Assembly: GCA_023053545.1 (NCBI GenBank)
Contig: JAKZAN010000002.1
Location: 9,234,790-9,298,789, forward strand
Direction: 5' to 3'
From: Lepidurus packardi
Lineage: Eukaryota > Arthropoda > Branchiopoda > Notostraca > Triopsidae
Length of the DNA stretch: 64,000 nucleotides
Position numbers and translations under genes: made by a program. Below, in pieces: positions 2,810-33,837 of this stretch (the first letter of the stretch is position 1; every line of letters starts with the position of its first letter). The notes beneath the pieces are model-generated. The model searched no databases, was not told the origin of the DNA, and saw nothing but the letters and a program-made list of their open reading frames with translations.

Positions 2810-2824
2810 TAAACCGGCCAGAAA

Positions 2825-3949
2825 ATGATGAGCGTTACAGATAAGCGGGTATACGCTTGTGATCATTGCCCGTACCACACCGATCGCCGGAACAATCTCA
2901 AGCGTCATACGGTAACCATGCACGAGACCAGCGAAGCTTTACTGGAGTGTTGTGGTGAGCAGTTCGAAAACAAATCTGCTCTACGACAACACACGTCTAC
3001 GTGCCACCGTCATGGTTATGTTTGTGCCATTTGCGGACGCGTCTTCTGTCGTCGAGCCCTCTTACGACGCCACCATGCAGTCCATACTGGCATCAAGGAA
3101 TTCTCCTGTGCAGTCTGCAGCTATGCCACTTCTCATAAGAGCAATTTGGACCGCCATATGAAAATACATAGTGAGTTTACCTATGATTCCTCGACGAGCC
3201 CTTACCATGCTTCCCAATCGTCGCCCAATACAAGCCGCGACGAATCGTCAACTCCCACTCCCTTCAGCAGTAATCTCTCGCGACCCATGTACACGTTTCC
3301 TTTTCCGACACATTCGACTCCGTGTTTCCTGGGAGAAATGGCAAGCACGTACCCGCAGAGTAATTACCAGCGTGCCGCTGCTGCAGCGCTTCCATCGCGT
3401 CCACGTTCCAATGTGGACTCCACTAGTTACAGTAGCTGCCTTGAAAAGATGTTGGGTAATCCACCCACCGATCCATTGTACGTAGCAGTACATTCACCCG
3501 GCAGCAGGCAGACGTCAATAATGCCCAAAACCGGTCCATTGGATGGTAGACCTCGTCCCAAGTTGCGACATGCCATTGATGTCATCTTGGGTCATCTTTC
3601 CGACGGAGACTCCGCGGTTGGGACTTCCATGACAATGAGTTCCACCAGTCCTTTTTCCTGCAGAAGTTCGTCGTCTTCCTTGCCTGAATTGTTTAGTATG
3701 AGTCCACCACACGGCGAAACTATGGTGTCTCCTAATTCCACTCACAACAAGTCGCATTTATCAGGTGGAATTGTGACTTGTGCCGCCACAATTAAGCCAC
3801 TAGTGGACGCTGCTAATGCCATGCTGCTAGAAAACCCCATGATTGAAAACTTTGCCAGTTCCAAGTTCTCCATAGCTGACAACTGCAAGCCTGAGCAAGA
3901 ATACATTCACAAAAAGTGGCGTGTGGCCAAACGTTTTCAGCTTTCTTAA
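2825..3949 (+). CDS. C2H2 zinc-finger protein, terminal coding exon (374 aa)
   Basis: Likely a nuclear DNA-binding transcription factor. Finger 1 has C12, C15, H28, H33. Finger 2 is degenerate, with two adjacent cysteines (C42, C43) in place of a spaced pair, then H56 and H61. Finger 3 has C67, C70, H83, H87 and is joined by a TGIKEF linker, close to the classic TGEKPF, to finger 4 (C95, C98, H111, H115). Residues 116-374 are Ser/Thr/Pro-rich with no domain I recognise. The start is well supported: a pyrimidine tract and CAG acceptor end at 2809, the exon opens with an in-frame TAA at 2810-2812, and the ATG pair follows at 2825. The whole coding part is therefore in one exon, preceded by at least one 5'UTR exon. 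The poly(A) signal is 7 bp past the stop. I cannot assign an orthologue; general resemblance is to arthropod four-finger regulators. Confidence 0.85.
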   Translation: MMSVTDKRVYACDHCPYHTDRRNNLKRHTVTMHETSEALLECCGEQFENKSALRQHTSTCHRHGYVCAICGRVFCRRALLRRHHAVHTGIKEFSCAVCSYATSHKSNLDRHMKIHSEFTYDSSTSPYHASQSSPNTSRDESSTPTPFSSNLSRPMYTFPFPTHSTPCFLGEMASTYPQSNYQRAAAAALPSRPRSNVDSTSYSSCLEKMLGNPPTDPLYVAVHSPGSRQTSIMPKTGPLDGRPRPKLRHAIDVILGHLSDGDSAVGTSMTMSSTSPFSCRSSSSSLPELFSMSPPHGETMVSPNSTHNKSHLSGGIVTCAATIKPLVDAANAMLLENPMIENFASSKFSIADNCKPEQEYIHKKWRVAKRFQLS

Positions 3950-8931: not shown

Positions 8932-10960
8932 ATATGGAAGAATCTTATGTAACGGAAGATGAAGCAACAGCGATTATCGCAAAATTACAATCAACAAAAG
9001 CAGGTGCCAATGATAACATTAAAGCAATAATATTAAAAAAAATGTGGGACATCATAAAAAAAAGTTTTGAACATCTATAACGATTGAATCCGATTAGGTT
9101 ACAACCCAAAATACTCGAAACCAGCAAAAGTACTCGTCCTTCCTAACTCCAACAAACCAAACTATGGCTCTTTTAAAAACTTTCGACGCTGCGCGTGGCT
9201 TCCAGTCTTAGGGAAAATGTTGGAGAAAAGTAAAAGCGATGAATGAAACTACAACTCTATTTAGGAATGAACAATTTATTAGCCGACACCCAATATGGCT
9301 TTCGAGCGGGAAGATCGACGGTAGACGCCCTAACTCACTTCAGCGATGCAGTGCTGCAAGCATTTGACGAAAGTAAAGTCCTCGTCCTCACAGCTCTACT
9401 GGTCGGTATCAGCGGTGTTTCTGTACAACGTAAGCCACAAGGAACTAGTCACCAAATTATTAGGGAAAAAACACCAACAACGCTGATTAATTGGATAAAA
9501 ACTTTCTTTGACGATTGATTAGCCTTCATATCTCATGGAGAAAACACTAGTCAGACAGTTTTCAAGGAAGCGGTCAACAGAAAATGCCCATCTCACCTGG
9601 GGACAAACACAAAATTTTCCTCAAGGAATCAGTTCGATACCTTGGCATAAACTACGACACCAAATTAAATTGGATCCCCCATTCCACATTCCTATCTAGT
9701 CAATGCAACAGATCACTGTCCCGAATAGCAAAAATCACCAAAAATATACAAATCTTTGACATGTATCCAAGCAAAAACCATATTGCAGACAACTACAATG
9801 GCTAAGATGAAGTATGTATACTGTCGAAGTCCGTCTGAATTTCGCCATTTTTAGTGTATTCGAGTTGTATTCGACTTGTATTTGACTTGCTACTTGTTCC
9901 CAGCCTGTTCATGACAAATCGAACCCTTTTTATACTACTTTTCTTAAACAACGTCCTCTCGTCGACTACTCGCAACTGGCTTTCACTATCTACGACGTAG
10001 GGTTGGGGAAGGGAAACACGAAGGAAAGAAGGGAAAGTGAAGAGGGACTTTGAAAACTGTACAGAATCATGACAGATCGTGACAATATTCAGCATGGTGC
10101 ACTATCAGCAACTCAAACCTAATCCCTTTATCGCAAATATTTAGAAAAGGCACGTAATTGTCATTGGAGCACTCAAAACAACACCTGCGTCGACCCTAGG
10201 AATAGAAACCGGACCTACCCCCTTTAAAATTAGCACTCACCAAAACACAGCTAAATTATTACGCTGCAAGAAACTGCATGGTCTGGCCGACACCCGTAAG
10301 TCCACCCAAAAGAAAAGATCACATCCTGTTCAGATCAAAGACGAGAGCTGGCAGCTCAAACATGGAACGCACAATCAGAATCCGCAGAACATACGCGTAA
10401 GTGGAACGAACAGTTCATAACTAACTCGTGGCAAAAACAATGGATCCATCAAAAACCCCCACTTAAAGACTTAAATGTTAGCCCCACCAACAGACCCTTA
10501 ATTGACTCTAAACTTCAAGATCTATACTGTCAAAAGTAATTCAAATAAGAACACTCCATTTTCCATGTCTAGAATATCTAAAGCGCATAAAAAAGGTGGA
10601 CTACGATAGATGCTCTTGCCAAACATGGACAAAACACGACGTCCCCCACCTATTATTACATTGCCCGAAATGAAAGAGAAAAACTACTGCGGGCAGTTAA
10701 GCCTTCTGAAGATTCATTTCAATGCTAAAGAAGTCCGATCCAACCCAGAAGCTTTTAACGTACTAGCTCTTTTTGCACAACCAATGAATGAAATGTAAAA
10801 AAAAAATTAATTACTAACCAATTATACCAACTAATCATAATAGAAACCAATTAGAAAGGTACTCCACCGACCCAAGTTGTTGTGATAATGTATAAAATAA
10901 CAAAATAAAAGAAAGATTTAAAAATGGACTAACAAATAAAAGATCCGACAACAGGCGCAT
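8932..10960 (+). mobile_element. decayed LINE (Jockey/I-type non-LTR retrotransposon)
   Basis: Pieces of one reverse transcriptase are found in order on the plus strand in changing frames. An N-terminal RT block lies near 8932-9080. A block reading VLPNSNKPNYGSFKNFRR lies near 9135-9190, then LPVLGKMLEK. The conserved QYGFRAGRSTVDALTHF is at about 9292-9342. A thumb-region block, VRYLGINYDTKLNW, is at about 9629-9672. The C-terminal block near 10610-10700 contains the C-x-C...H...H...C pattern usual at the LINE ORF2 end. The catalytic YADD region and about 200 residues around it are missing, and several stops and frameshifts interrupt the rest. An A-rich tail follows at 10797-10807, with TAAAATAAC-type AT-rich DNA to about 10960. 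The stretch 9800-10095 does not look like LINE and may be a later insertion. Confidence 0.8.
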
Positions 10961-15789: not shown

Positions 15790-15795
15790 TTTATT
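15790..15795 (-). terminator. mbl: candidate poly(A) signal for the short mbl 3' end
   Basis: AATAAA on the minus strand (TTTATT on plus), about 855 bp beyond the stop codon of the ZnF6 exon. It is the nearest canonical signal I noticed downstream of that stop, but closer non-canonical signals are possible. Confidence 0.25.
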
Positions 15796-16648: not shown

Positions 16649-16851
16649 TTATGCCGCCAGGGTCCGCGGTGTAACAGAAGCCACATTGGGTTTGTCATCC
16701 CGTACTGGACGCTGGACGATTTGCTGCTGCAGTATGGACGCAGGTGGCAATAAGATTGGTATATGGTAAAATTTGCAGCGATGCCGAAAACACTGGCCCT
16801 TGACGGCATCGCGGCAAACCGTTACTTTCAAGTCCGTCATATCCACATAAT
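16649..16851 (-). CDS. mbl: mbl terminal exon carrying ZnF6
   Basis: The acceptor is CTTGCTTCCCAG, just above 16851. The exon starts with two bases of a split codon (phase 1 intron) and so completes the Asp left by the upstream exon, giving [20 protein letters not shown]. Finger 6 is C529-x7-C537-x4-C542-x3-H546, the CX7CX4CX3H form typical of the second finger of a muscleblind pair. The tail [15 protein letters not shown] and about 20 more residues lead to TAA at 16649-16651. The linker between the H of finger 5 and the C of finger 6 is 15 residues, similar to the first pair (14). This supports a genuine folded tandem unit, not a stray finger. Confidence 0.82.
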
Positions 16852-19800
16852 CTGGGAAGCAAGACAAGAAGCAATTATAACTTTGTGTAGAACTACTTCG
16901 TTATCAAAATTTGTCGTAATAATTTCGCTAGACGAGTTTGAACATCGAGAGCAGAACTTTCTTGTCGGAGAAATGAGGAAGGACTAGCGTTACAAACAAA
17001 GGGGTACGAGGGAAAAACGGGTGGTACAAGAAAAACCGAACTAAGGTTCTTTCCGAATTTTGGACTCAATACGTCAAAATTATATCTGTATGTGAAATTA
17101 GATTCTTTTGTCACAATAAATCTATCTGTAAGGCCACGGTGAACTGTAAGTAGTGGATTTTTTTGTCAAAAGATGACACTGTTGTCATACCCCTATATTA
17201 CAACAGGTTGTCACTAAATCCAGAGAACGTGTTGCTATATGAAGATAATTATGCAACTTGAAACAAAACTTAAAACACAAATTTAACAGAAATGTAACGA
17301 TAGAATTGAAAAATATCTTAATAAAAATATCTTCATAGGCTGCGTCAAAAGATTTATTTCAGAGTTATTTGATTTATTTTCAGAACTTTAATGAGTTTAA
17401 ATTAATTATATATCTAATACTTTTGAGGCAGCCTATCAAGATATGTTTAAAAAACAATTTGTCAATTATATCGTTAAATTTGTTTCAAGCTGCATAATTC
17501 TCATGATATAGGAGCAATGATACCAGTGCCATCTTTGGCAGAACGACCAACTACTTGCAGTTCACCGTGTCCTTAAAAGTAGGAGTTCAACCGGATTAAT
17601 CTTACCATCTAACGCGTGGACGAACTTACAGGCGCAGCGTTTACATTCTCCATACTTAAAATCGCGGCATACCGGGAGGGTGTCCAGCAACTGCAAAAAT
17701 GATACAAAAAAGGCATTAGTAAAAGTAATCCATAAAGTCTCTGCGCTGAGATAAGAAATTTTGTTCAAGATAAATAATAATAATATTTTCTTTTTGGCAA
17801 TTGATTTATACAACCGTTCGGATCAATAAAGCTGGTTAATATTCCAAAAGTTATGCAAACTTTTTTCTTCATCGTCAGTCACTACGGATAATAAAGGCAA
17901 AAAGCTTACCAGGGCCAAGCTTCTTCAACAGTGCAGATCAATGGCATCCCAAGGCACGTGCAAATTCAGTCAATCAAGTTTTTTTTTTTTCAAGCGGCAT
18001 AAAAATCGGCAAAATACAACAAGAAGGCGGAGAGGGAAGACGGCGGATGTATAAAAAATAGTTTCTTATTTTTGTCTATTTTGTATGTTTGTTTGTTTGT
18101 TTTAATGTCAAGTACTACGTTAGGGACATTCCAAAGTACGGGAAAATATGTAAGAAAATAAAAGGTTCAGGCGGCCGCAACCCAAAGGAAAAAAAAATCA
18201 CTGCTACCAAATTAAAGCGCGCGTTCGGAGCAAAAAAAGACCACAAACCCTTAAAAAAAATGGGTGAAGGATAAGACAAAATTAAGGCGGAGTGAACAAC
18301 TGGACGACTCCGATACAACTTGGACTTGCGCAGCAAACCTGTGTCCTCTCTCCCCAAAAAAAATTCCTCATGTGGGGGAAAGGGGCGGGGCTTGGAAAGA
18401 AATAAAGAGGAATAAGAGCACAGAGCGATTTTTTCCTACTGTAATGTAAAAGAAAGAGTATATCAAGCTGGTACTTTACTAGTAAAGGGAAAGAAAAATC
18501 CCTCTTCTAAAGCTAAAAGTGTTCTAGCTAACTTTTCTTACTGTAAACTTTCCTGGAAGGCTTAGAAGGCATAAAACTGCTTCGGTCTGACTTTCCCCTT
18601 CCCCAAGATCGAAAAAAAAACTACCAACGGCTATCTTTCTTTTCTTTTTCTTTACTACTTTTTCATTTTTTTTTCTTTTTCTTTTATTGGCAACCGAATC
18701 ATTTACTATACCTGTCCTTGTTCATCCGTGTACTGCACTGAGTAGGCATTGTTGGGAATAGGCACTCCCACACCTAACATCCAAGGTGCTGTTGTAGCTG
18801 CTAGTTATTTTTTTGTTGCGTGCAAGAGCATCCCAAGGCACATTGAAAACAAGATCACCAAAGCACCCGGTAATTCCACGTTTTTATATTTTTTTGTGTG
18901 GTGGGAACACAAAAAACAAAGGCCATTCCATTTTTTAAGGCGTTATAGGGGGAGAAGGAGGAGTTGGGAGCGGAAACATGTAAGTCATGATCGTGCAGAA
19001 CATTTTTCCAATTCAAGACAACAAGGCGGCAGCATGCGGAAGAAGTATGATAAAAAAAAAAGAATACGAAAATTAATATCCCCCCTGAAATAAATCCAAT
19101 AAAATTCGCAGTGAGCAGCTGAGACATTGAGACATTCCATTAATTCTACGGATTCCCATTTGGCAATACAGTTGGTTACTTTGTAGGAAAATGAGATTAG
19201 TACGAGCAAAAAGTAGCCATTCCAATTTTTGTTTTGTTGTTGTTTTCTTTCCATTGGACAATAACATAAAATGGTGTGTGGAGGCAAAGAGAAAATTCGC
19301 CTATACTTACAAATTCCCGTCTTGGTCATACTCCGAATGCAGGAGTAATACCGGAGCTGAGAGCACATCACACGAGAGCGAGAAAAGACAGGGAGGAATA
19401 AAACTAATTAAGAGGTTCAGGGATCAGGGTTTTCAGTCGCTCTGACGGATAAGAAACGCACATGGATGAGTATTGTGCAAGCGTCAAATAAATTAATCAC
19501 ACACAAAACAGAATTAACGCTTCAAAATGGTCTCATGAAACTCATTTTGCCTCATTGGTTTTTCCTTATTATTCCCTTCTTAGTTAGATTATAACTTGGT
19601 CAATTTGTGATTGAACTAATTCAAAAGCTATACGACCAAGCCAAACGACGGGAGTATATTTATACAGTACTGTGAAAAATAAAGTAGCCATTCTCCCCGG
19701 CAGATGCAAGACGCAGTAGAAATATTTTTTTTGGACTACTCCGCACAGTCTGGTTTCATTCTTTGTTGCTCAGAATAGTAAAGTAACAAGGCTGGTACTG

Positions 19801-22800
19801 AGAAATAATTTCTTGGGGTACCTACATAAGGTACAAAAGGCAACAGAAAAAGGCACAGTTTTTGCTTTTTTTGTCGCACGTCGCAGACAAAGAAATAAGC
19901 GGCTCCGGAATGAACGCACAATGACGTTTTTGGTAGATTTTGAAAAGCGAGGTCCAAGTGCATAGAGGTGGCGCAGGATATGAAAAGCAAAGGACAAAGG
20001 TTTCGACTTTTGGCTGGAAAAAAGGGTTTCGTGTGGCGGGTACGGAAGTTGTTTCTATGAGCAAAAATAGCAACGCTGGCAGAGGCAAAGTAGCAAAAAT
20101 ACGTGGCTGGCGAATACTTCGGCGAATAAAGGCGGTCGCTAGGTTGGAATATTTTTTTTTCCAATATATATATAATAAATATATATCAGCAGGAAAAAGA
20201 GCGCAGAGTATAAATACCGACAGAGGCGCGGAAAACTCAATAACAAGCCATTAAATTGAAGAAAACTTGGTCATGCAGTTTCACAAGCTGATTATTATTA
20301 AAAAACGAGTACATTAAAAAAAGGGCGGGGAAAACTTGGGGGTTGTAATAGAGGTTATATATATCCTATAGAGGTGGAGAGAAAAGAATAGAAGAGATAG
20401 AGACAATAGTGTAGAGTTTCTTTTCCAGAGGTTAGAGAGTCAAAAACTATAATGAAAATGGGGGTAGGGGGTGGGAGAAACTTTTGCACACATTACATCC
20501 AACAAATTGGCTGTTACACAACCAAATATACAAAAAAGCTACTAAGATAGTCACACTTTCTGACTTTTGTCTTTTTTTTCGTAACACAAAAAAGTACCAC
20601 CAATGGGGATGAGGGGAAGGAGGCGCTACTTTCAGCTCAAAAAATATTTTTGTCATGAAATTTTTAAAAATTTAAAGAAATGGGGAGGCGTTCCATGCAG
20701 AAACGCATAACCATTTTGTCAAAAAATCCAAAATTTCTAGTAATAATATATAAAAAAGAAAAATAATAAAAAAAAAAACACCACCACCTAAGGAATCGCT
20801 TTTGCAACCTACGAAACCAATGAACTTTGCCGAATGTACCGGGGGTGGAAAACGGACGGGTTTGTTGAAAAAGGAAATTCAAGAAAAATAATTCCCATGA
20901 TTTTTGGGCCATAAAAAGGTAACGAGGAAAACGATTGTATAGGCATCCTGGACCAACAACAACACAGTAATTATGTGATAGGCAAATTTTGGGATGGGAG
21001 AGGAAAATTATCTTTTTTGGTGGGGGTAATATTTTTTTTTTTGGCGAGCAATTATATACGAAATACGAAGCCTAAGAAAACTCCACTACAGAACTAAATC
21101 ACTACTGTCTCCCAGGAGTGGCATGCGACAGAAAAACAAGAACCAAACCCATGACAACTTTCTACGAAATTGGAACAACGTAATATATGTGAAATATTAT
21201 CTTAAAGAAAAAAAAAGGTGTACGGGGGCAGTTTTTCGCGTTGTTTACGGCAGGATCAATTCAAAAAAGGGTAAATTTTCCCTGCACCACTGGGATGACG
21301 GAAACTGGCTTGCAAATCTTCCAAAAAAAGGGACAGGGGGTAAAATAACTCCATAAAAGGGCAGGCAAAAAGTAAATCAAAGCTAGCACTGGGCCAAAAA
21401 ATGTAACAATCCAAAACCAATAAAAAAAATGCAAATAAGCACAACAATGCAAACTCTTCAACTACTTTTCCCACACTAACACATGTTGTTATTGGTTGGG
21501 CTACTGGATAATAAGAATTGTGTGATCAAAAACCCAATACAAAGTAATTCTCGCGTCATGCTGAGCCAGCATGGAAATTAATGCAATGTATGTTCAAAAA
21601 TTCGGGAAGGAATGCCACAGTAAAATTCGCTAAAAAAAGGATCAGAAAAATAAAAAAAATAAGAAATTCAGGGAAAATGTAGCCAAGGAAAATTAAACCT
21701 GTTCCAGTAAAAGAATTAAAGGGAAAATAGCAAAATTTTGCAAAGGGGAGGGAGGTTAAGGAAGGGGGTGGGGCATTGGGCAGAAAGAGGCGGGGTTTGT
21801 AGAGGACAAAAAGCTTGTACACAAAATAACAGGGATTCAAAACTCTCCCTTTCCAACTACAGTTAGAATACCAAATGCGCAGAAAACGTTTGCCATTCCT
21901 TTTTTGTTTTGCACATGCAGCGGAAATCAGTTTGAGGAATATTTGGCGCAAATGCAGCGTTTACAGGAGCGGAACACAAGTCCACTAACCAACCCCCTTT
22001 TCTACGTTCTTTTTCATGACACACCAAGATAAAACAGGAGGGATTTGGGGGTATATCGGATAGAAAGAGATAGATAGAAACAAACAGAGAGAGAGAGAAG
22101 GATAGAATCCAAAATATTGGCCAAAATTGGGATTTCTTTTTCTTTGTCAGAAATATAAAACTTATTAACAGCTCCTTTATGGAATGGATAAAAAGCTTAG
22201 AGATGCGTTATCACCAGGATTATCTGTCGCATTTGATACAATCAATCCCTTTAAAAAGCGAATGTAACAGTTTTACTTATAATTTTGGTCATCCTTGCGA
22301 CTGCTTTACCCTATCATATTTCTTTACTCCCTTCCTTTACTTCTTTCATTCAAATCTTGGCATTTTCATCAACTTGTTTTTTTTTTTTTTCACTGTGGAA
22401 AGGGCATTGCGAGTGGATGATGGTTACGGCATCGTGAACGCATCCAATCAACGGAAGCACCGTTTCTCAATGGATTTTTTTTCTTGTTCTCTGACTTTTT
22501 AAGAATTTCAACCTTTTTGGCAGTCAAAAGTTTTGCTTCCTTCCCCCCTAAATAGGTTTAAATACACTGGACAATCCTCTCGTGACACACTGGATTAATA
22601 ACAAACAGGGGCAAAAATCACAGGCTCGGTGGCCGTCCTTTCAAAAAATCAACACAATCTAGACCGCTTTACTATCTCACTTAACTATCTTCCTATCGCT
22701 TGTTCACATAGCGTGACTAGCTCGCTTTCAAAACCCTAAAAAAAATTTCCCGGTCTCAACCAAATCTAATTATCTCAAACTTCTGTCTCAGATTGTCCGC

Positions 22801-25800
22801 ATTTTCTTATAGGGCTGGGGTAAGCCTGACGCTGAGGCCAGTGCTGCCGCTGCGGCGGCCGCATTCGACATTCCTACTGCACCTGCTCCGGGTCCCGCGG
22901 GCATGCCGAAGGCCATGTATTGCGAGGGTAACATGCCGGCCATTCCTCCGAATTGTAGCCCCTGTCCGGCGGCGGCCGCGCCATACATGGCTTGCAAGCC
23001 ATGCGTCCCGGAAAAGTACGGATTGCCCGCGAACGGATTGCCTGCGGTACCCGAATGCAAACCCGCTAAGCCCTGGAGGCTAGACAGGCCTAAACCGTGT
23101 CCGGCAGCTGCGGCGGCGGCTGCCATATTTTGAAAACTTTGCAGACCAGGCGCATTGGGAAAGGCGGCCATGTTGGCGCCCCCAAAGGCGTTTCCGGCGC
23201 CTCCTGCTGCTAAACTGGCGTAGGCGGGATGTAAGAAGGCTTGCCCTGCTTGCGAATTCAACAAGGCCTGATACGGGTATTGTAACCCGGCAGCGGCGGC
23301 CGAGACAACTGGATTGCCGACTGCTGCCGCTGCAGCAGCGGCGGCCGCCGACTGCTGCGCTTGCTTGTTCAAAGAAACACCGGTGTAAGCCAACGCAGAC
23401 AGGTTAGGGTACCCACCCAAGCTGTACCCGGGCATTCCGCTCGAGACGGTCGTGTAGGCCGAGGACGCGGGAAATGAATAGGCGGCCGAGGAAGAAGGGG
23501 CCGAAGGAAAGGAATAGGCTGACGAGGACGGGTACGAGTACGCGAGTGTGGAAGACGGAAAGGAATAGGCGGCTGACGAAATGGCCGCCAATTGTTGCTG
23601 GATTTCCCTATCTCTAGAGGGAGTCGGACACTCGCGCTTCACGCCACCGCCGGCGTACGTCCAGCTGGCGGCCAGCTGACTTGTTTCTTGACTCGGCGTC
23701 GTGGCCAGCGTAGTAATAATGACGTCACTGGGACTCCTGTTCTGACTGGGCTCTGAGCCACTGGTACTGGACTCGAGTTCATTGACGGTGCTTCCGTTGA
23801 TGACGGAAGAACAAGTGTTGGACTGAGAAGAAGCAAGGACGTTAGCGCTCGGGCTACCGGGAGGCTCGTTAAGCAAAGAAATGGAAGAAAGGGCAGAAAC
23901 GGACGAAGCAGGAATAAAAAGCTCGCTCAACTGGGGGTTGGTTATAGTAGGTGCTGCTGTTGTTGCTGCGGCAGAGGTGGCAGTGCTAATAGTAACCCCT
24001 CCCGCGGCGGGACTAACATTGTTGCTGTTGTTGCTGTTGGTACTAGCGGTAGCGGTAGCAGGCGGAGCAACGTGAGGTTGAGTTGAGGGGTACTCACATG
24101 AAACGGGGACGAAGGGCTGCTGCAACTGCATAATGGCCTGGGCCTGTGCTTGGTGGTAAGCAGCGGCGGCGGCTGAAGCGCCAGCGGCCGAAGGTTGGTA
24201 CACTGGCATTCCCGACTTGTCACCGGCGCTCCTCTTGTAACCTTGCACCATACCCGGATACGCCTACAATACGCACACACAAACAAGAAAACAAGCTTTT
24301 ATGTTAGCGCTTCCACACAAAATTTTTGAGTGTCAAAAATAAGCAAAATACAGAATATAGACAATATAGTCTCAAATCGGGGCTCTCTTTTTCTTTCTCC
24401 TCCTCTTTTTCGAGAGGGACAACTGCCAAAACGCAAAAAAACAAACGTCCATACTATCATTCCACAAAACTACAAACACCAGCCAATAGCAATTCAAAAA
24501 AGAAAGCGTTTTCAACATAATATCTCGTCTAAAATTACAGCTATTTGTAACGTAAAAGCCTCCGTTCACTCCCCAACAGTGAAATACGTTCGCCATGTAT
24601 CACAATGAAAAAAAGAAATTCGGCACACGTAAGTAAAGGCACGAAGTGCCCCAACTTCAGTAGATGTCGGCGACCTGAAAGCGAGGTGAGTTGTGTTAAG
24701 TTGGTTTCATGCCCAGCGCCTTAAACATGTAACGTGTAGCAAGGCGTGGGACGACGCATTGGCTTTCACATGCATCTGATGGGGATTAAATTCTCGCCTC
24801 TCTTAAGTCTTTTCTCTGAGAAAAATGTCAAAAATTGACTTTACGTTTAAAGACTAGCTAAAATTTTTCCTTGTTCTTTTTTTTTTTGAAAAAAAAAAGA
24901 ATTTGTCAAAACTAATTTTTTGGGGGGCTGATCAAAGTTCTATACCAATATTTCATCCTGAAGACTCCTGTCCCATTCTCGGGGTCTCTTCCTGGTAGCC
25001 AAGTTCTGGCCCTCTAGCGGAAGGGTATTAGAAGTCGTGGCCGCCGCCGCAGCGGTAGTCATCGTCAGGGGGCAAGAGGCGATCGGCTTTATTAGTAGAC
25101 AGTAGGGCAGGCAGAAGAGTAGGCAGGCAGGAAGGCACGCACGGTTTACGAACGCAGGCATTGGACATCAGCGATTTTCAGGCAAGCAGCAGCCAAAGCA
25201 GCCAGGCAATTAAAAGGAAAAAAAAGAAGAAAAAATGGAAACAAGAAAAAAAAAGTCAGGTAAATCCGACAAAAAGTGTCCACCACTTCAAAAATGCTCG
25301 CGCGTTTTTTCTCATAAACTACTTTTGAATGATTCTCATTTCCAAGTGAAACCGCCTCGAACGTGAGACTTCCTCCAAAACTGAAGAAACCAAAGAGCCC
25401 CGAGAGAGTGGGTTAATAAATAAATGAAACGTGAAGTAAATCTCGGGAGAAAAACCTGACAGCCATAAATTTGCGAAAACAAGCCACAGCTGTCACTGAA
25501 CCAAGTCACTGAGTCTGAGTCCATTAAGGTAAAAATACACGCTACTCTGCAGCTATGACTGATCTGTGTCTCTCTTGTCTGGCGTAGTTCCCCTTCCTGG
25601 CGGAAGTTACATCCCCCAATGTGTCTAACATATTAACCTTCCGCGAGAGCACGAGGAAACCTCGTTTTGTCGGGGAATTACAATGCTTTGGCGGAAAAAA
25701 GGGCTCACGGCTTTTATATGCCTTAGTAAAAAGAAAAGAAAGAGTTTTATAATCCATCAACGTCCTATATTTTCCTTATACGGCCTTCTACCCCCTACCC

Positions 25801-28800
25801 CCTGAACCTGACAGCAAACATTACACCGCATGAAAAAGGGGGAAGGGATAGAAGAACGTTTTTCAAAATTACTGGTACTATTGAAGGTCGTTTGTGTTTC
25901 TCTCCCCACATTAATCTTCATGGCCATTTATATGTCTTTCTCCGACTCAATTACTAATGACAAAAAGCTATTAGATTCCCTTTTTGTAACGTCTTTATTT
26001 GTTTTGTTGGTTTTGTTGGTTTTGTTGAGTCTTTGGGGGGTATGACAAGAAATAACTTCATAGCAGCCGACGAAAGTAGCCCTGCAAATTGCTCTAAGCC
26101 ACGCCCTTCCCTTTCTACTAAGTAGCCGAGTTTTATTCCAATTATTTTTGGTGAACGGGGTGCAGGGGGAGGAGTAATATAAGTAATAGTAATGTTCTCT
26201 TTTTATGGTCTTGAAACGAAATGAAGGCCTTCCACTGAGTACTTAAAAAACTCCAGGCGAAGCCACACCCCATTAAAAAGCACACTCAACAGAATTATTT
26301 AGAATCAACAGCCAAAAAAATAATGCATGCAGCGAGATGCTTTGGAAGGTTTGGTGAGCGACAACTTGACTACTGAAACGCAGATAAGGACGGCCAAAAT
26401 CAAGATGCGTTGGTGCTTGCAATTCATTTTCTTTTCTTTTTTGTAAAGAAAAGTCTTCTCTTTTTTTACCGGGGTATTAGGGAGGGCGTGGTGATGGTGG
26501 TGCGGATGGCTCGTCCTTTGTTGCCGTTGTAGCAGAGCAGCGTGGAGGTGGGGCGGAGGGTGAAAGTAGCGGCAAGGGTCACGACTGCAACGCCCGCGCA
26601 TTGCGTCCATGCAAACCGTCACCACAGGCAGGTGTACAGCAAGGGTCGTCGTTGTTACGTCTGCCGCGGTAGCAACAGAAGAAGTAGCAGCAAGAGGAGA
26701 AGAAGAAGTAGCAGCAGCGGCAGTAGGAGAAATGGAAGTGGAAACTAGGGGAGTACCGCAGCCGCCTCCGGGCCCCGGACCGCTGCCGGGTTCCATACCC
26801 TGAGTCACACCCAGAGGCGAATGGGAGGCGGTGGACCCCGCAGGTTGCATCTCGATGACTACGCCATCTGGCGGGTGTGCATAACGACACTCGCTTTCCG
26901 GCCGTCGACAAGTACCGCGCTGAAACTCGCGACACACCTGCGGGCAACGAGAGGCAACACAATTTGGTGGTGTGTGGCTCAAGCTTTCTCAATTTTCTTG
27001 TTGTCTCTCCTTGTCTATTTTGCTCTTTTTATATAAATATACATCTATTTTCCTTTTCCAGATTTAGATTTTTTTATTTCTTCCAATCTTAATTTAGCTA
27101 ACTTGCCGATACCTGGCTTAAGGACACGGTGAACTGCAATAGTTGATCATTTGCGTCAAAAGATGGAACTGGTGTCATGAAAATTACGCAACTTGAAACT
27201 TGAAACAAAAAGTCTAAAATAAATTTAACGATATAATCGAAGAATTATTTTAAAAATAATATCTTAATAAAAATTTCTTGGTATGCTGCGTCAAAACATG
27301 TAGATATATCATTTATTATATTATGATTAACTTATTCAAGTTACGAAAATTTTAAAGAAATCATATATCTAAATCTTTTGACGCAGCATACCAAGAAAAT
27401 TTTATTAAGATGTTATTTTCAAAAAATTTCAATTATATCGTTAAATTTCTTTTGGATTTTTGTTTCAAGTTGCGTAGTTCTTATGATATAGCAACACGTT
27501 CTCCGGATTTAGTTACATACGTACGTAAAGTGTCCCTGGGTCAAACATGACACTAGTGTGTCATTGGCCAACAATGAATTCTTCCTTTTTCAGCTAGTGG
27601 AGTGAAAGAAAATTCAAATTTTAGCGATTCTCATCAACGAAAATTGATGAGAATCGTGAAGCTAACCTAATCTAACCTAACTTAATAACCTAACCTAAGC
27701 TAAACTAACTTAATAACCTAACCTAAGCTAACCTAATCAAACCTAAACTAACCTAATCAAACCTAAACTAACCTAACCTAAACCTATCCTAACTTAACCT
27801 AACCTAACCTAAACTAATGTATTTACAATCCAACTACCATTTTTGAATTCGAGTGACACCCGTTTGTCATTCGTTTTCCGAGAACGTTTTGAAACCATAA
27901 TAGACACTAGTGTCATTTTTATCTCGGATTTCCGAAACTGGAGAACCGGTTGGATATAGAGGTATGACATCAGTGCCATCTTTTGACAAAGATGATCACC
28001 CATTCGCAGTTCACTGTGGTCTTCACGAAAAGGAAAATTCGTTAATATAATTCCTTATTCTGCTTGTATGGAGAAATTTTGGTCGCCTTTTTAGCTTTCG
28101 GGTAAGTATACGGAATGGAATTAAAAAAAAAAGGGGATGGGTGGCGATAAGTTCTGTTTCCCGAATGCAGCAATTGCTCTGGATGCTATATCGTGCAAAG
28201 AAAAAAAAATGGGAGGGGCCAAGAGAGGACCATAACTTTGGACATTTACAGCTTCCCAGGCGAGACTCTTTTTTTTCCCTTCTTCTTGTTGGTCTCTTTA
28301 TTCGGAGGTAAAGCTCCGTTCCCCTTCGGCGTTTTAGCTTTTTACCCTAACATTTGAGGGTTAATAAGGAAACGTCGTTTACGAGCTTCACGACTGTAGA
28401 CATACAACAATGAGGTGACCACCTCCGGCGTTCCTGTCAGTACGTGGTGATTAACTCCCCCTCATCCTTTCGCTTTACGTATACTTTCGTGTTCACCTTT
28501 ATAAAGGAAAGCCACGACCTATAACTGCCCTTTCAGAAGGGGGGTGTTTGACGTGGGGGAAGGGGTAATGCCCGGCGGGGCTACCCCATGAAAAAAAGTA
28601 TCGCGTTCAACATCCCGCTGCATGCAAATGTGGCTTTTGTTTTTAAGCGGCAATTTTTTAAAAAATTATTTCCTTTTATCTCAGGGGGAAAAAAAGAGAA
28701 GAAAACTATTGTAGGTGCCGCAGATATGAAAATCGAGAAGCACCTTACAATATAGGTGGTAACGTAAATGTAAACATCAATCTGTTTCGGTGATGTGAGA

Positions 28801-31800
28801 ATCTGGTTTAAAGTGGGAGGGAGCTGAGCCAGCAGCCAATGCAAAAAAAGGCGTCTCTCTCTCTCTCTTATAATAAGAGAGATAACCGCTTGTAAGGCTT
28901 GCTAACGTCGCTTTAATTAAGGAAGGTGGAGAGGAGAAAAAAAGAAAAAAAAGACAGAAAATAATCTGGAATGGGACTTACCTCGATACGATCCGAGCGC
29001 TGCAGCTTGGTGTTGGGAGCAGGAGCATAGCCCATCATGGAAGACACTCCCTCCGGACCCACTACTTGAAGCATGGCCGGAGACGTGCCGTACGGGGAGT
29101 AGGCGCTCTGGGCGGTCAACTGGGGTATACCGGCTGCCGCCAGGTACGGTGATGCAGCCTGCATAGGCACCACGTGATGATGAGCGAAGCCTCCTATACT
29201 GCTGGCGCAACTAGTCGGCTGCGGCCAGTCAGTTAAATCGGGTTCTTTTTTACAAGTTCAACTACCAAACCACACACGAAAGCATTCTCACAATTTGCAG
29301 ATTCTTGAAAACAAAATTCCCAGTCGGTGAACAAAAAAGACAAGGCGTCGCTTATTTGTGATCACATTTGTCAAGTGCATACTGATCCTATTAATCGGCT
29401 GATTATAATACCAGTATTATCATAATAAGCGACCATCATAATATGTTCTTTAAAATTTGATTCTATAACGGGGCTGATTATAATACCGGTGATCATAATA
29501 AGCGGCGCCTACTGCAACAGAAAAAGTTGGGGGATTAAATGAGGGGGAAAATTTGGCAAAAAAGCAAATTGTGAGCACGAGCTTAAAGGCAATAGCCACC
29601 AGAAAAAGAATCATAAAAAACGACAACACAACTTTGCCTTCAAGAAACAGCGCAAGAAATCTAGTTTTCTAGTGAGTTTTTTCTTTCTATTTGCGCCAAG
29701 TAGTTGTTAAGTTATTCGCGATTTAACCAAACGTAAGTTCGATTTGACTTTTAATTAGATTTAACAAAAGTTACATCCGCGATTTAACAAAAATAGATCA
29801 CATGGCCTCCTGACGTCACAAACGTGTCGGTATCCATAACATCATTTGTTTAACACCCTGAACTGGGAAGTAAACGATAAGCAAGGTAACAAGTGCCATA
29901 AGCCACGCCACGAACACCTCTGTGACGTCACGTACCCAAACTTCGCCTTCTTATAACTCGCGAAGAGCTTACAGGAAAGATACGAAACGTTTGTCGTTCT
30001 TAGAAGAATTAATACTACAGTGTATAGCAAACTTTCAATCTAATATCCATATATCTGCCTGAAGCGTTTCTGGTGGCTAGTACCCAAAACATAATTGAAA
30101 TAAGCGATTTTTTTTCACTTACGATGGTTTGCATCTGACCGGGCAAAATATGCTGACCAGGACTCATGCCCATTTGCAACATGAGCGCATTTTTCAAGGC
30201 GAGGTGATTTCGTCCGTTAATGAGAAGCTGGTCTTTGAGGTGTTGAGGTGGATGGAAGTATTTGCACGGAGGCTTCTCGCGGTTACACCTCCCCTACGGA
30301 ATACAAAACATAAAACCCACCACAACTCATTAGTTTTTTACGCCTCTTATAATAATGCTATACTTCATTTCGTTCTGCTCAATATATTAGCGCCCCTTTT
30401 TCTTTGCCCGGACGACGGTAACCCTGCTTCTCTCTCTCTCTCTCGCCGTACCTCAAGCTTAAAGAAAACCCTCCTGAAAACTAATCAAGAGCCGAGCAGA
30501 AATTTGAAGGATTCGCCAGCAACGCTAATGAGATTAGCAAACGGTGATAAAAGAGTATAAATGGAACAGCATCGCTCTGCTAACGCCACGTGTGTAGGTA
30601 TGCGTCTGTGTCTATCATCGCCAAAGACGCCAGGACGAGGAACGAGGCAGAAAGCACACACGACACAATTCAACACAAGTGTCCTCTACAGAATTACTCT
30701 TGTTACCACGTCCCTTTTGCCACCTTCTCAACCTTTCGCATAAGAGTCCAATGATTTCCCTCACTTTCTAAATTAAAGTTGAACAAAAGTAAAAAAATGA
30801 CCATCCCAAACCTATCAACACCCATGAAAAAAAGACGAGCAATTGCCACCTATAGAGAGAATGATCGTACCCAATGCCCCAATATTGCACGCCTACTCTT
30901 TTTCTCGCTCCCATTTTCGTCCGTTTCTTTCATGGATTCCGCAGGGATGAGCGACATTTCTTCCCTGGAGGTTCCAAAAAAAGAGAAGGCCTCCAACTGG
31001 GGAATTACCTTCCCCCAGAAAAAATCTAAAATATGGCTTCCACCACGTCTACAGCAAATGAAAGACTTCGTCAGCTCCTGTACTCTGTACGTGGAGAGTG
31101 AGCTATAGCACTCACCCCCTACTCCTAAAAAAAGGCAAAAAATGCAAAAAACACCCCTGGAAATTGTGAATGCGTCTCGGGTGGCGGTCTTAGAGCGTCC
31201 GGCTCTTACTCGGTCGTCTTCGCTATGGTTTCCCTGCTTTGTCCTCGCCTTGTCTGCTCAATCCTCCGCAGGGACCTCGGACGTGGGTGGAATTTCTATG
31301 GGCAGTACCCAAATCCTAGTCCGCCATGCTCAAGCCTCGTTTTTCTTTATTCTTTATTTACACTATATTCTCGCAAGACAAAGTATGAACTAAATACGGT
31401 GACGCTTTTCAAACTCTGGATCTTTTTTCGTGTTTCAACTGTAATTCCTAAGCTGGAAAAATTGGTTATATCCCATATTTTCTTCTATACAAATACTAAG
31501 AAAAAACTAGTACGCCACACGTACATTAAGGCCAGTGTGTACTGCAACTAGTTTTTTTTTGTCAAAAGATGGCACTGATGTGATACCTCTCTATATGACA
31601 ACAGCTTTTGCGACTTGAAACAAAAATGTAAAAGAAATTTAACGATATATTTCATTTTTAAAATATCTTAATAAAAATATCGTAGAACACAAGCTTTAGA
31701 TATGATCTATTTAGAGTTATTCAAGTTATGAAAATCTTAAATCATTTATCAAAACTAAAGCAGCAGGTAAAATAGATTCTGTTATTAAGATGTTTAGAAA

Positions 31801-33837
31801 AATAATTGTTCCATTATCGCTTTGTTTCTTTTAATGCCTTGTTTAAAGTTTACGAAGTTACAGCGAGAAATGGTATGCCATCAGTACCATCTTTAGGCAA
31901 AAAAAATGATCAACTACTTGCAGTACACCGTGGCCTTAAAAAGAAGCATGCTTCTAACTCATCCACGCCTATCGATTGCTCGTGGAACTGCGGTAGTCAT
32001 TAAAAAGAAAGGGCCAGAAAAGTTACTCGCATGCGTTCCTTTCAGCAACTCGAGCTTCAACTCTCGTTCTCTTTCTGTCACAGAAAACAAATCTCCGGGA
32101 CCTGTTGTTATGCGTACTTAAAATGCGTTTTAAATTTACGCCGTGACAGCGCCGCGCTTCACACAAGTTGCCAAGTTCACACGGAAAACACAGTGTTTCC
32201 CTCGTCAAACGCAAGCCTTGTCCCATTAGTGTAGAGAAAACCAAGTGTGCTTGAAATATTTAGCACAAATCTGCTCCCTAATGTCAGGCTACAATTACCT
32301 CACTCGTTCGGCTTCGCTCTTCCTTCCTTCTTATCCTCCATTCACCCCACACTTTCGGCTCTTCAAACGTATAACAAGAGAAAAGACTCATTTGCATGCA
32401 ACAATGTGCTTAACCTGCAAGTCCCTTCGCTCTCTGTTCTGGGGGAAAAGAAACGGAAAATAAGCTCAAGCTCCTCTGTCTCCTCTTCAATTTATCTCTT
32501 TTCCTTCGCTTCCAAAAAGCGTCCTCCAAATCCTCCAGTCGTCAGAAAATTTCATTGATCATCTCTTTTACAAGATCTTCTTAAAGCATTTCCGTTTCAT
32601 GTTCTTCACGATCTCCAGTCCCCAATCCCTAAGTACGTTTCGTTTCAAGAAGCATCAACTTCTTCCACCCGGGAAAGTTTGTCCTTAATCCTCTACACTT
32701 GAGTCGTTTTTTTTTTGGGTTCTTAAATTTTATAAAATACAAATTCTTCCAAAATTAAATAAGAGTTATTCCATCGCTTTTCTTTCTCTATTGTCCCTTT
32801 AAATCACCCCCTGGCCAGGATCTCTTTATCCCCTCCCATCCCGCCATTTCCCTAAAACGCTTAACTCAACACTCTGAGGAAGTAGAACCTACAACTTGCT
32901 AATGCTATTAATTGATCCCCCCAAAGTTTATATGCTGTACCTTGATTTAACTCTCTACGAACCACTCCGTTTAAAATCGACGCTAAACTGCTTAAAACGG
33001 TCGTAAATGAGCCATTCTTTCCCATTTACAAAAATCTTTCTTTTTTACAACAAGAAATAGAAATCCCATTCCCTCCTCCAACTTCGTGGACTAATTAACT
33101 TTTCCAAATCCGCCAAGATCAGAACATAAATCGTTTAAAACAAACTAACATAATGAAACGATTTAAAGGACGGCAAAGAGCAGAGTATGTATTTCTTGTA
33201 CTGTGAAAACGAGCTCTTGAACCCATGCCTAAATTGCCCTGATCATTATCCGCGCAAGTGATCGTGCCATCTAGTACTTGGGAAGGTATACAGTCCATTC
33301 TCGCGTGCTTGACTACACTAGCAATGGCTTTTCTATGCATGCAATGGCGGCTAACGGCTTTTTGGCTTGGTCTCTCTTAGTTCGTATACAATAGCCTCAG
33401 TGTACAAGACACCCTTTAAACTATTCCATGAAAACGCGAACTTAAAAACCATGGCGTGACGCTTTGGCTAAATGCCCATTCCACAATAGCCCTGGTGAAA
33501 AAAAAAGTGCCGCACAACCGGCACTCATTCATTTGTTTTAAAACTTAAAAAATTAAAATAAAAAACTAAATTAACTAAAAATAAAATCAACTTTGACCAG
33601 GCCTCTTCTTTTTTTAAGAGAGTAAGAATGCTTTCAACATACCTTGATAGAGTCGTAGCAGGCTACGACGCGTCCATTTTGCACCTCGACGCTGGGTGGC
33701 GGGTGGGCGAATTTGCATTCCGTGTCCGATCGAGAGCATTTAGAACGCTGGTACTCGCGGCATACTTCCAGCTGGAGCCAGCGCGAGTCTTTGACGTTGA
33801 GCATGTTATTTAAGTTCATATTAACCATGGCCGCCAT
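16649..33837 (-). CDS. mbl: muscleblind: CCCH RNA-binding splicing regulator (multi-exon gene)
   Basis: The product is a nuclear/cytoplasmic RNA-binding protein that controls alternative splicing and mRNA localisation by binding YGCY-type RNA. I joined the exons by splice consensus and phase. Isoform A uses 33643-33837, 30123-30293, 28982-29218, 26470-26937, 24946-25086 and 22788-24263: 2688 bp and 895 aa. Isoform B uses the same first five exons, then 24098-24263, 18712-18797, 17606-17690 and 16649-16851: about 583 aa. Finger pairs are ZnF1-2 (C26-H79), ZnF3-4 (C203-H327) and, in isoform B only, ZnF5-6 (C496-H546). The N-terminus and first pair are very close to the fly and human proteins ([32 protein letters not shown]). 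5'UTR exons and the promoter are not identified; the gene probably extends toward higher coordinates. Drosophila mbl is likewise long and makes isoforms with different numbers of finger pairs. Confidence 0.93.
17131..17573. mobile_element. TA-flanked palindromic MITE, copy 1 (443 bp)
   Basis: The left end begins AGGCCACGGTGAACTG and the right end is its complement; both are flanked by TA, the target duplication of Tc1/mariner-type transposons. Long outer inverted repeats (GTCAAAAGATGRCACTG..., then ATTATGCARCTTGAAACAAA) surround a second inner palindrome (CTGCGTCAAAAG/CTTTTGAGGCAG). No coding sequence. It occupies most of the 754-bp intron between the ZnF5 and ZnF6 exons of mbl, and its right end is 32 bp from the ZnF5 splice donor. 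Confidence 0.85.
17606..17690 (-). CDS. mbl: mbl exon carrying ZnF5
   Basis: The acceptor is TCATTTTTGCAG and the donor GATG/GTAAGA. The exon is 85 bp, starting in phase 0 and ending with one base of a split codon that pairs with the next exon. It encodes [20 protein letters not shown] and then CKFVHALD: C496-x7-C504-x4-C509-x3-H513. This is CX7CX4CX3H, whereas the first finger of the canonical muscleblind pairs is CX7CX6CX3H. A further Cys sits between the zinc ligands (KRCAC). The phase-0 start agrees with the exon at 18712-18797. Confidence 0.82.
17691..18711. other. mbl intron
   Basis: About 1 kb between the ZnF5 exon and the preceding small exon. AT-rich, with poly-T near 17979-17990 and no ORF of interest. 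Confidence 0.6.
18712..18797 (-). CDS. mbl: mbl small linker exon before ZnF5
   Basis: The donor is GGACAG/GTATAG. Reading back from it in the frame that fits the next exon gives [20 protein letters not shown], then DEQGQ, an open and compositionally protein-like segment bounded upstream by an in-frame TAA. The acceptor is either TAACTAGCAG (exon start 18797) or TAACTAG (18800). Both leave phase 1, which matches the internal GTGAGT donor after VPVS in the next upstream exon, and both would produce a Ser at the junction. The polypyrimidine tract is poor, which fits regulated inclusion. Too short for ORF finding; called from phase, splice sites and the context of the following finger exons. Confidence 0.68.
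18801..22787. other. mbl intron and 3'UTR of the long exon
   Basis: This stretch follows the stop codon of the Ala-rich exon and would be 3'UTR in isoform A and intron in isoform B. It is rich in A, T and G homopolymers. I found no canonical minus-strand AATAAA close to the stop and saw no further exon with convincing phase. Confidence 0.45.
22788..24263 (-). CDS. mbl: mbl long exon: conserved linker plus Ala/Ser/Tyr-rich tail
   Basis: Acceptor GTATTGTAG, phase 0. The first 55 codons hold the arthropod muscleblind signature: [26 protein letters not shown], a poly-Ala insertion, then [11 protein letters not shown]. Reading on through an internal donor gives CEYPSTQ and a 436-residue low-complexity tail. 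That tail has Thr/Ala/Ser-rich runs, repeats of the type AYSFPSS (at least five), poly-Ala tracts of 9-10 residues, and Gly/Ala-rich segments with [20 protein letters not shown], ending in QPYKKMRTI and a stop. It has no known domain; low-complexity tails of this kind suggest protein-protein contacts or condensation. The DNA is GC-rich (GCGGCGGCC runs) compared with its flanks. Confidence 0.88.
   Translation of the reverse strand, partial: AYPGMVQGYKRSAGDKSGMPVYQPSAAGASAAAAAYHQAQAQAIMQLQQPFVPVSCEYPSTQPHVAPPATATASTNSNNSNNVSPAAGGVTISTATSAAATTAAPTITNPQLSELFIPASSVSALSSISLLNEPPGSPSANVLASSQSNTCSSVINGSTVNELESSTSGSEPSQNRSPSDVIITTLATTPSQETSQLAASWTYAGGGVKRECPTPSRDREIQQQLAAISSAAYSFPSSTLAYSYPSSSAYSFPSAPSSSAAYSFPASSAYTTVSSGMPGYSLGGYPNLSALAYTGVSLNKQAQQSAAAAAAAAAVGNPVVSAAAAGLQYPYQALLNSQAGQAFLHPAYASLAAGGAGNAFGGANMAAFPNAPGLQSFQNMAAAAAAAGHGLGLSSLQGLAGLHSGTAGNPFAGNPYFSGTHGLQAMYGAAAAGQGLQFGGMAGMLPSQYMAFGMPAGPGAGAVGMSNAAAAAAALASASGLPQPYKKMRTI
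24098..24263 (-). CDS. mbl: mbl long exon, short form ending at the internal splice donor
   Basis: Within the long exon the codons for V-S-C-E-Y read GTT TCA TGT GAG TAC, which contains TCAT/GTGAGT, a strong 5' splice site. Using it gives a 166-bp exon ending in phase 1, exactly the phase needed by the acceptor at 18797/18800. This alternative donor switches the product from the Ala-rich tail to the third CCCH pair. Confidence 0.65.
24264..24945. other. mbl intron
   Basis: A 682-bp intron. A 3'-end T-rich tract on the minus strand precedes the TATTGTAG acceptor. No other feature seen. Confidence 0.7.
24946..25086 (-). CDS. mbl: mbl exon with Ala/Thr stretch and basic NLS-like motif
   Basis: The acceptor is CTACTAATAAAG and the donor ATATTG/GTATAG; the exon is 141 bp, 47 codons, phase 0 at both ends. 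It encodes an Ala/Thr-rich start, then [20 protein letters not shown]. The RKRPRE cluster matches the place and type of the KRP motif after the last finger pair in other muscleblind proteins and may act as a nuclear signal. A second acceptor at 25014 (CCGCTAG) would break the reading frame with its neighbours, so I chose the longer form. Confidence 0.75.
25087..26469. other. mbl intron
   Basis: A 1383-bp intron. At 25087-25140 the minus strand has a long CTGCCTGC-rich pyrimidine tract before the acceptor. A TTTTGTTGG triplication lies near 25999-26025. The upstream exon's frame stays open into this intron as far as 26305. Confidence 0.65.
26470..26937 (-). CDS. mbl: mbl exon carrying ZnF3 and ZnF4 with an inserted linker
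   Basis: The acceptor is CGTTGCCCGCAG and the donor ACCCCG/GTAAAA; 468 bp, phase 0 at both ends. It follows RSDRIE of the previous exon exactly as human and insect proteins read RTDRLE-VCRE. ZnF3 is C203-x7-C211-x6-C218-x3-H222; ZnF4 is C310-x7-C318-x4-C323-x3-H327. Between them lie 87 residues rich in Ser, Thr, Ala and Gly, where the human protein has about 16. The frame is open throughout and I see no good splice pair inside, so the insertion appears to be translated. After ZnF4 comes [18 protein letters not shown] and then a His-rich run. The ORF stays open beyond the donor for 54 further codons, so intron retention would give a different tail. Confidence 0.9.
26938..27120. other. mbl intron, short piece before the composite element
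   Basis: This intron segment lies next to the acceptor of the ZnF3-4 exon. T-rich; nothing else seen. Confidence 0.6.
27625..27656. repeat. perfect 13-bp stem hairpin beside the CCTAA array
   Basis: CGATTCTCATCAA pairs with TTGATGAGAATCG around a six-base loop. Nine bases later the sequence reads CTAA. A hairpin about ten bases before CTRR is the 3' signature of Helitrons, but the CTAA here is also the first unit of the array, so this reading is only a possibility. Confidence 0.6.
27662..27817. repeat. degenerate CCTAA/TTAGG-like array
   Basis: About 156 bp of imperfect CTAAC/CCTAA units on the plus strand. There is some higher order: a block of about 35 bp reading CTTAATAACCTAACCTAAGC appears twice, and an 18-bp block ACCTAATCAAACCTAAACT appears twice. 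TTAGG is the arthropod telomere unit, but units here vary from 5 to 7 bp, so this is telomere-like, not a clean telomere tract. Confidence 0.85.
28023..28981. other. mbl intron, second part
   Basis: Contains a (CT)n run at about 28853-28868 that forms a small hairpin with AAGAGAGA just after it. No coding feature seen. Confidence 0.6.
28982..29218 (-). CDS. mbl: mbl linker exon between the first and second finger pairs
   Basis: The acceptor is ACTGGCCGCAG and the donor ATCGAG/GTAAGT; 237 bp, 79 codons, phase 0 at both ends. It reads from [10 protein letters not shown] through [10 protein letters not shown], a [10 protein letters not shown] motif and QVVGPEG to KLQRSDRIE. The order PYL...YSPY...GPE/D...RSDRxE is the same as in insect muscleblind. 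The final RSDRIE directly precedes ZnF3. It is a flexible linker in the protein, with no known fold of its own. Confidence 0.88.
29341..29514. mobile_element. short pogo-like MITE (about 174 bp)
   Basis: Its ends resemble those of the larger pogo-like elements at 36.4 and 60.9 kb: GCTTATTTGTGATCACATTTG at the left and the complement ending GCGGCGCCTACTG at the right. It has an internal repeat CTGATTATAATACC. No coding capacity. Lies in the mbl intron before the ZnF2 exon. Confidence 0.65.
29633..29975 (-). repeat. TGACGTCA-bearing dispersed repeat, copy 1
   Basis: Read on the minus strand, it shares GTGACGTCACAGAGGTGTTC and the following GTGGCTTAYGGC..TTG with copies at 42.3 and 48.7 kb. It also shares a right-hand part ending ACTAGAAAACTAGATTTCTT...TTTCTTGAAGGCAAAG. 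Two TGACGT motifs lie near 29811 and 29921. No protein recognised; a SINE or MITE is likely. Confidence 0.65.
30123..30293 (-). CDS. mbl: mbl exon carrying ZnF2
   Basis: The acceptor is TTTGTATTCCGTAG and the donor ACCATC/GTAAGT; 171 bp, 57 codons, phase 0. It completes ZnF2 begun in the previous exon: C60-x7-C68-x6-C75-x3-H79 ([14 protein letters not shown]), the insect-type spacing of six where vertebrates have four. [20 protein letters not shown], with residues that contact the RNA-binding face in the family, and a GMSPGQ motif follow. This exon is almost identical to the fly sequence and is the strongest single identification in the window. Confidence 0.95.
30294..33642. other. mbl intron between ZnF1 and ZnF2 exons
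   Basis: A 3.35-kb intron. It contains one palindromic MITE (31529-31936). (CT)n stands near 30430-30445. The remaining short ORFs show no domains. Confidence 0.7.
31529..31936. mobile_element. TA-flanked palindromic MITE, copy 3 (408 bp)
   Basis: TA precedes AGGCCAGTGTGTACTGCAAC on the left and follows GCAGTACACCGTGGCCT on the right. It has the same outer repeat, the same CTTGAAACAAA block and the same order of parts as copy 1. No coding capacity. In the mbl intron between the ZnF1 and ZnF2 exons. Confidence 0.85.
33643..33837 (-). CDS. mbl: mbl first coding exon carrying ZnF1
   Basis: It starts [20 protein letters not shown] and continues [20 protein letters not shown]. The donor is ATCAAG/GTATGT, phase 0. 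ZnF1 is C26-x7-C34-x6-C41-x3-H45; C60 of ZnF2 is also here. The ATG at 33837 lies in CCTGCCATGG, a good Kozak context; a second ATG at 33828 (MVNMN) matches the fly start better and could be used instead. The frame is open upstream to 33909, with a possible acceptor CGTCAAAG just before VEPLG, so a longer N-terminus is conceivable. The equivalent exon in Drosophila is also circularised (circMbl). Confidence 0.93.

Follow-up and report, generated by a model that had tools for sequence, protein, structure and literature searches.

Does the muscleblind (mbl) gene of the branchiopod Lepidurus packardi encode a third tandem pair of CCCH zinc fingers and, if so, how does its transcript reach that pair? 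A sequence-only reading of a 64,000-nucleotide stretch of contig JAKZAN010000002.1 (the whole stretch is called the window here, and positions are counted from its first letter) had proposed that two minus-strand exons, 17606..17690 and 16649..16851, encode ZnF5 and ZnF6, both of the form CX7CX4CX3H and separated by a 15-residue interfinger linker. A pattern scan and an in silico join confirmed the coordinates, the motifs and the phases, and splice-site ranking and profile scores were obtained for both exons. The ZnF5 exon runs from phase 0 to phase 1, and the ZnF6 exon, in frame with it across the phase-1 intron, carries the C-terminus to the stop; the first AATAAA 3′ of this stop lies at 15790..15795 (minus). 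Joining 24098 to 18797-18712, 17690-17606 and 16851-16649 gives a single open frame that ends with TAA at 16651-16649.

We scanned all six frames of the whole window with the pattern C-X6-9-C-X3-6-C-X3-H and obtained five matches, all five of them mbl fingers on the minus strand: ZnF1, ZnF3, ZnF4, ZnF5 (17669-17616) and ZnF6 (16816-16763). ZnF2 is absent from these matches because an intron splits it. Scored with profiles of odd and even MBNL-type fingers (four rows each, two from PDB matches and two from ZnF1-4 of the window) among 2725 window peptides, the unspliced ZnF5 frame reached 17.1 bits (E 5.7e-4) and ZnF6 32.2 bits (E 8.8e-9). Across the 119,720 peptides that 40 Markov-1 randomised windows yielded, the corresponding maxima were 11.1 and 16.2 bits; the real scores exceed all randomised controls, which rules out a chance origin for both fingers. 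All eight zinc ligands are intact, as are the splice sites and the frame. Ranked by splice-site tables among the minus-strand AG and GT sites, the ZnF5 acceptor stands at the 98.7th percentile, and the ZnF6 acceptor and the ZnF5 donor both stand at the 99.5th. The codon log-odds per codon against the gene's core exons are slightly negative (ZnF5 -0.29, ZnF6 -0.12) under a model that was trained largely on a low-complexity exon and has ZnF1 and ZnF2 in its training set. These negative values, and two AATAAA (17378, 17358) within the ZnF5-ZnF6 intron, count against the explanation that we favour below. The two exons are genuine, correctly located coding exons of a finger pair.

Both exons are located 3′ of ZnF1-4 of the muscleblind gene and share their strand. 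The gene opens with an exon at 33643..33837 (minus, like all exons described here) that encodes, from the ATG, ZnF1 and the first half of ZnF2 (MAAMVNM...VACYDSIK) and ends in phase 0 at the donor AAG|gtatgt. The remainder of ZnF2 is found in 30123..30293 (phase 0 to 0). This finger reads CX7CX6CX3H and, since insect ZnF2 differs from that of vertebrates by two extra residues between two cysteines, according to Irion 2012 (PMC3315501), the longer, insect-type spacing marks the gene as arthropod-type. Between the pairs lies an exon at 28982..29218, with a putative start, which ends ...LQRSDRIE in phase 0 at a donor (GAG|gtaagt) near the 100th percentile. A single 468-nt exon, 26470..26937 (phase 0 to 0), encodes both ZnF3 and ZnF4 and matches MBNL1 ZnF3-4 at 3e-20. 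It is followed by a probable exon at 24946..25013, ending in phase 0 at a donor of the 76th percentile and with an uncertain start (25086, 25013 or others), and by a long exon, 22788..24263, which runs to a stop after ...YKKMRTI and contains an internal phase-1 donor after 24098 (CAT|gtgagt, 99.4th percentile). The linker between ZnF3 and ZnF4 (26874-26614, minus) is rich in Ala, Ser, Thr and Gly and has 87 residues, compared with 16 in MBNL1, so that ZnF5-6 may be more compact than this canonical second pair. A stretch of the linker, 26798-26661 (138 nt, in frame), with a 97th-percentile donor on one side and an 89th-percentile acceptor on the other, could be removed as an optional intron, leaving a linker of 41 residues.

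To which family does the ZnF5-6 pair belong? It matches Pfam zf-CCCH_10 in two stretches at 3.5e-11, above the family's cut-off; zf-CCCH_3, the only other Pfam family matched, stays under its own. In a PDB search with E up to 10, 12 sequences matched ZnF5-6, the best six being MBNL-type pairs (8.6e-15 to 5e-9) and the seventh CPSF30, at an E of 0.45. The top three carry ZnF3-4 sequence, and the best of all, 2e5s, which is named just OTTHUMP00000018578, we judge from its sequence to be MBNL. By family profile, then, ZnF5-6 is an MBNL/Muscleblind tandem CCCH pair. ZnF5 scores 17.1 bits with the odd-finger profile versus 7.2 with the even one, and ZnF6 32.2 bits with the even-finger profile versus 7.0 with the odd one; the pair therefore retains the family order. 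The zinc histidine is preceded by a basic and an aromatic residue, CKFVH/CKFYH in ZnF5-6 versus CRFAH/CKYFH in MBNL1, and the linker is short, as suits a compact pair (15 residues, versus 16 in the PDB row of MBNL1 ZnF3-4). In PMC4176163, MBNL1 is given the spacing CX7CX6CX3H in odd fingers and CX7CX4CX3H in the second finger of a pair. ZnF6 conforms to this, but ZnF5, at CX7CX4CX3H, is two residues short. Finger spacing varies in the family, as the two extra residues of insect ZnF2 illustrate, and we therefore regard ZnF5-6 as a divergent member. Its family membership and kept pocket-type residues suggest that it would bind GC steps in RNA.

ZnF5-6 shares 28 of 61 aligned residues with MBNL1 ZnF3-4 (46% identity, 62% similarity), whereas ZnF3-4 of the window shares 39 of 63 (62% identity, 81% similarity). 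Because of these counts ZnF3-4 is the vertebrate-type second pair, as the sequence-only reading had held, and ZnF5-6 a divergent additional pair. With the MBNL ZnF1-2 pair ZnF5-6 has in common the family and the compact form, and with the exon-5 tandem pair of Drosophila Mbl and vertebrate ZnF3-4 it has in common the zf-CCCH_10 match, the even-finger spacing CX7CX4CX3H of ZnF6, the VTVC ahead of ZnF6 and the basic and aromatic residues before the zinc histidine. It differs from the latter in having CX4C in ZnF5 where odd fingers have CX6C, and in being encoded by two exons with a phase-1 intron rather than by a single exon; in ZnF1-2 of the window the intron falls inside ZnF2 and not in the linker. 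A recent duplication of the ZnF3-4 exon is disfavoured: ZnF5-6 is no nearer to ZnF3-4 of its own gene (25 of 61 identical, linker omitted) than to the human pair, and the intron positions are different in all three pairs. With ZnF1-2 of the window it shares 23 of 60 residues. NCBIfam, a prokaryote library, returned no family for the pair, and among 80 pattern stretches from prokaryote genome contigs and four from viral contigs there was no confirmed relative, as expected for an animal gene.

A precedent exists in the fly. The sequence-only reading had taken Drosophila mbl to make isoforms with one or two pairs; this does not capture the account of Irion 2012 (PMC3315501), where two different second pairs are separated in the fly gene. 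One, encoded by a new exon 5, is 61% identical and 80% similar to human MBNL1A; the other, found in MblF (transcript RF), is 32% identical and 49% similar. As the exon-5 pair and the MblF pair are distinct, and both come besides the first, we infer from that account a total of three pairs in the fly gene. Like ZnF5-6, the MblF pair is an extra mbl tandem CCCH pair that resembles MBNL1A only weakly and is separate from the well conserved exon-5 pair; ZnF5-6 is most likely its counterpart. The parallel between the two species is close for ZnF3-4 (62% and 81% here versus 61% and 80% in the fly) and loose for ZnF5-6 (46% and 62% versus 32% and 49%), and the higher identity of ZnF5-6 to MBNL1 is a point against its being the MblF pair. 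Moreover, MblF is described with two pairs, not with the three of the six-finger reading considered below. Elsewhere in the literature, Vicente-Crespo 2008 (PMC2238819) covers isoforms A to D and lacks the word mblF, and a 2026 review (PMC13044900) lists MblA to MblG and gives invertebrates one pair. Searches of open-licence PMC papers listed no title or abstract beginning that names a six-finger or third-pair Muscleblind, which does not imply that such a protein is unpublished. The proposal that the third pair is an extra unit thus stands in so far as this is a real MBNL-type pair on the same strand and 3′ of ZnF1-4; its novelty is reduced by MblF, and it is a modest extension of known biology.

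The route by which the transcript reaches ZnF5-6 is less firmly drawn. The pair had been proposed to be joined to the rest of the gene through a small bridging exon at 18712..18797 (minus, phase 1 to 0). Its frame and its donor (CAG|gtatag, 95.8th percentile) are consistent with this, but its acceptor ranks only at the 47th percentile, and of all the elements in the chain this exon is the least certain. It is bounded upstream by an in-frame TAA at 18807-18805, and starts at 18797, 18788 and 18773 are all in frame with a single donor, the only one within 22780-17700 to pass thresholds set from the small exon. Of 400 randomised introns, 7 contain an equally good small exon, and 1 does so for the 18773 start; these figures flatter it, as the thresholds were taken from the observed exon itself. 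Elsewhere in the window, 2 out of 19 stretches of 5080 bases contain one as good, minus-strand stretches overlapping 17700-34000 having been excluded beforehand. Its codon score is 0.31, compared with 0.26 for ZnF1 and 0.23 for ZnF2, both of which belong to the training set, and it ranks 10th among 75 candidates; of the nine above it, two are shorter versions of the small exon itself and the other seven fall within the long coding exon 24263-22788. We regard the support for the small exon as suggestive only. With its poor acceptor, its ambiguous start and an AATAAA nearby (18683..18688, minus, 23 bases beyond the exon and a possible alternative 3′ end), it is the weakest link of a six-finger protein.

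The small exon is also needed for one join only. The ZnF5 acceptor is in phase 0, as are the donors 33643, 30123, 28982, 26470 and 24946, and direct joins of these five to 17690 are open in the mbl frame, leading into LLDTLPVC. Only the donor after 24098, that of the VPVS exon, requires an adaptor to reach ZnF5: joined directly, the frame is open but is not that of mbl. The claim that phases run unbroken from ZnF1 to ZnF6 was right about the join, which is open, but this does not single out a six-finger protein, which is therefore one of several products allowed by phase. Another such product is the first pair followed by ZnF5-6.

That product corresponds to a variant of our preferred explanation, possible but in our view doubtful, in which ZnF5-6 is joined to an upstream phase-0 donor, for example 28982 (...SDRIE + LLDTLPVC), and ZnF3-4 and the VPVS exon are skipped. 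The protein would have the first pair and a divergent second pair, which is how fly MblF, with two pairs of which the second is weakly conserved, is described in PMC3315501. All five phase-0 donors could supply the join, that of 28982 rounds to the 100th percentile, and the weak small exon becomes unnecessary. Phase compatibility is common, however, and proves nothing alone; the small exon does better than random in the 400 randomised introns, and the donor after 24098, which it would serve, is strong. A somewhat unlikely alternative makes the small exon a short alternative terminal exon or part of a 3′ UTR, with ZnF5-6 reached otherwise. Consistent with this, an in-frame stop (gta tag) comes directly after the putative donor, with the AATAAA at 18688 just beyond; there is no AATAAA between 22788 and 18688, so that the 3′ UTR of the long isoform may cover the small exon, and the acceptor is mediocre. 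The good donor and a codon score resembling those of ZnF1 and ZnF2 argue the other way.

Two further explanations detach ZnF5-6 from mbl proteins altogether. It is improbable that the pair belongs to a separate short gene on the same strand, with its own promoter 3′ of mbl: the small exon does contain an in-frame ATG (PWMLGV) and the long mbl stop at 22788 is about 4 kb away, but the fly precedent (PMC3315501) is an mbl isoform and no separate gene. Even less probable, in our estimate, is that the exons are relics that now have no protein product. Their divergence from the gene's other two pairs and their weak codon scores would suit relics, but eight intact zinc ligands, together with intact splice sites and frame, are unexpected in a relic so diverged.

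The 3′ signals and other features of the window complete the description of the locus. On the minus strand between 22788 and 18688, following the long-isoform stop, we found neither AATAAA nor ATTAAA; variant AGTAAA signals occur at 22673, 22341, 22328 and 22277 (minus). The long mbl isoform may thus have a 3′ UTR of about 4 kb that overlaps the small exon, or end at one of these variant signals. In an exploratory count of YGCY sites (18 flanks of nine exons), the counts for the small, ZnF5 and ZnF6 exons were matched by 0.12 to 1.00 of background stretches. Within the 150 bases that precede the exon near 25 kb (25232-25083, minus) there are 12 sites, a number that 0.00 of background stretches reach; this cluster is a possible site of Muscleblind self-regulation, or just a pyrimidine-rich tract. 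Eight sites lie downstream of 24098 (0.02 of background), where the long exon is coding, and five upstream of the ATG exon (0.03 of background). The ZnF5-ZnF6 intron contains a MITE-like element (17122-17582) with 49-nt end repeats of 78% complementarity, and related pieces are present at 27118-27517 and 27941-28023 and within 31527-31941 and 41197-41391. On the plus strand, opposite to mbl, a 378-residue open frame at 2813-3949 shows by eye several C2H2-like zinc fingers (YACDHCPYHTDRRNNLKRH...) and had nothing above cut-off in NCBIfam, and an open frame at 9243-9518 resembles, again by eye, a reverse transcriptase fragment (LLADTQYGFRAGRSTVDALTHFSDAV).

Weighing this evidence, we consider it reasonably probable that ZnF5-6 is supplied by an alternative 3′ end of mbl as a divergent extra finger pair, the probable counterpart of the MblF pair. 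In its favour are the shared strand, the order of the exons, frames that are compatible, the MBNL-type matches and the MblF precedent. The long low-complexity terminal exon (stop 22788) would be shortened at the internal donor 24098, or skipped, and the transcript would then continue to the ZnF5-6 exons, so that the C-terminus of the protein would carry an added, divergent tandem CCCH pair. ZnF5-6 would replace the long low-complexity tail, either after ZnF3-4 or instead of ZnF3-4. From what is known of the family, the added pair is predicted to bind GC steps in pyrimidine-rich RNA and would alter the strength or the location of binding by this splicing regulator. More tentatively, and with the balance of our expectation against it, we envisage a Muscleblind of six fingers, a single protein that carries all three tandem pairs; here ZnF5-6 may also replace ZnF3-4 as a compact second RNA clamp, with splicing choosing the pair, because the ZnF3-4 linker has grown so far beyond that of MBNL1.

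As described in PMC4176163, MBNL finger pairs bind RNA and are unequal in affinity or targets, and sequestration of MBNL leads to the mis-splicing of myotonic dystrophy (PMC3315501). An isoform-specific extra pair, if common to arthropods, would provide a natural test of what happens when a pair is added or swapped, and would qualify the statement of the 2026 review (PMC13044900) that invertebrates have one pair. Given the fly precedent, the finding is only modestly surprising.
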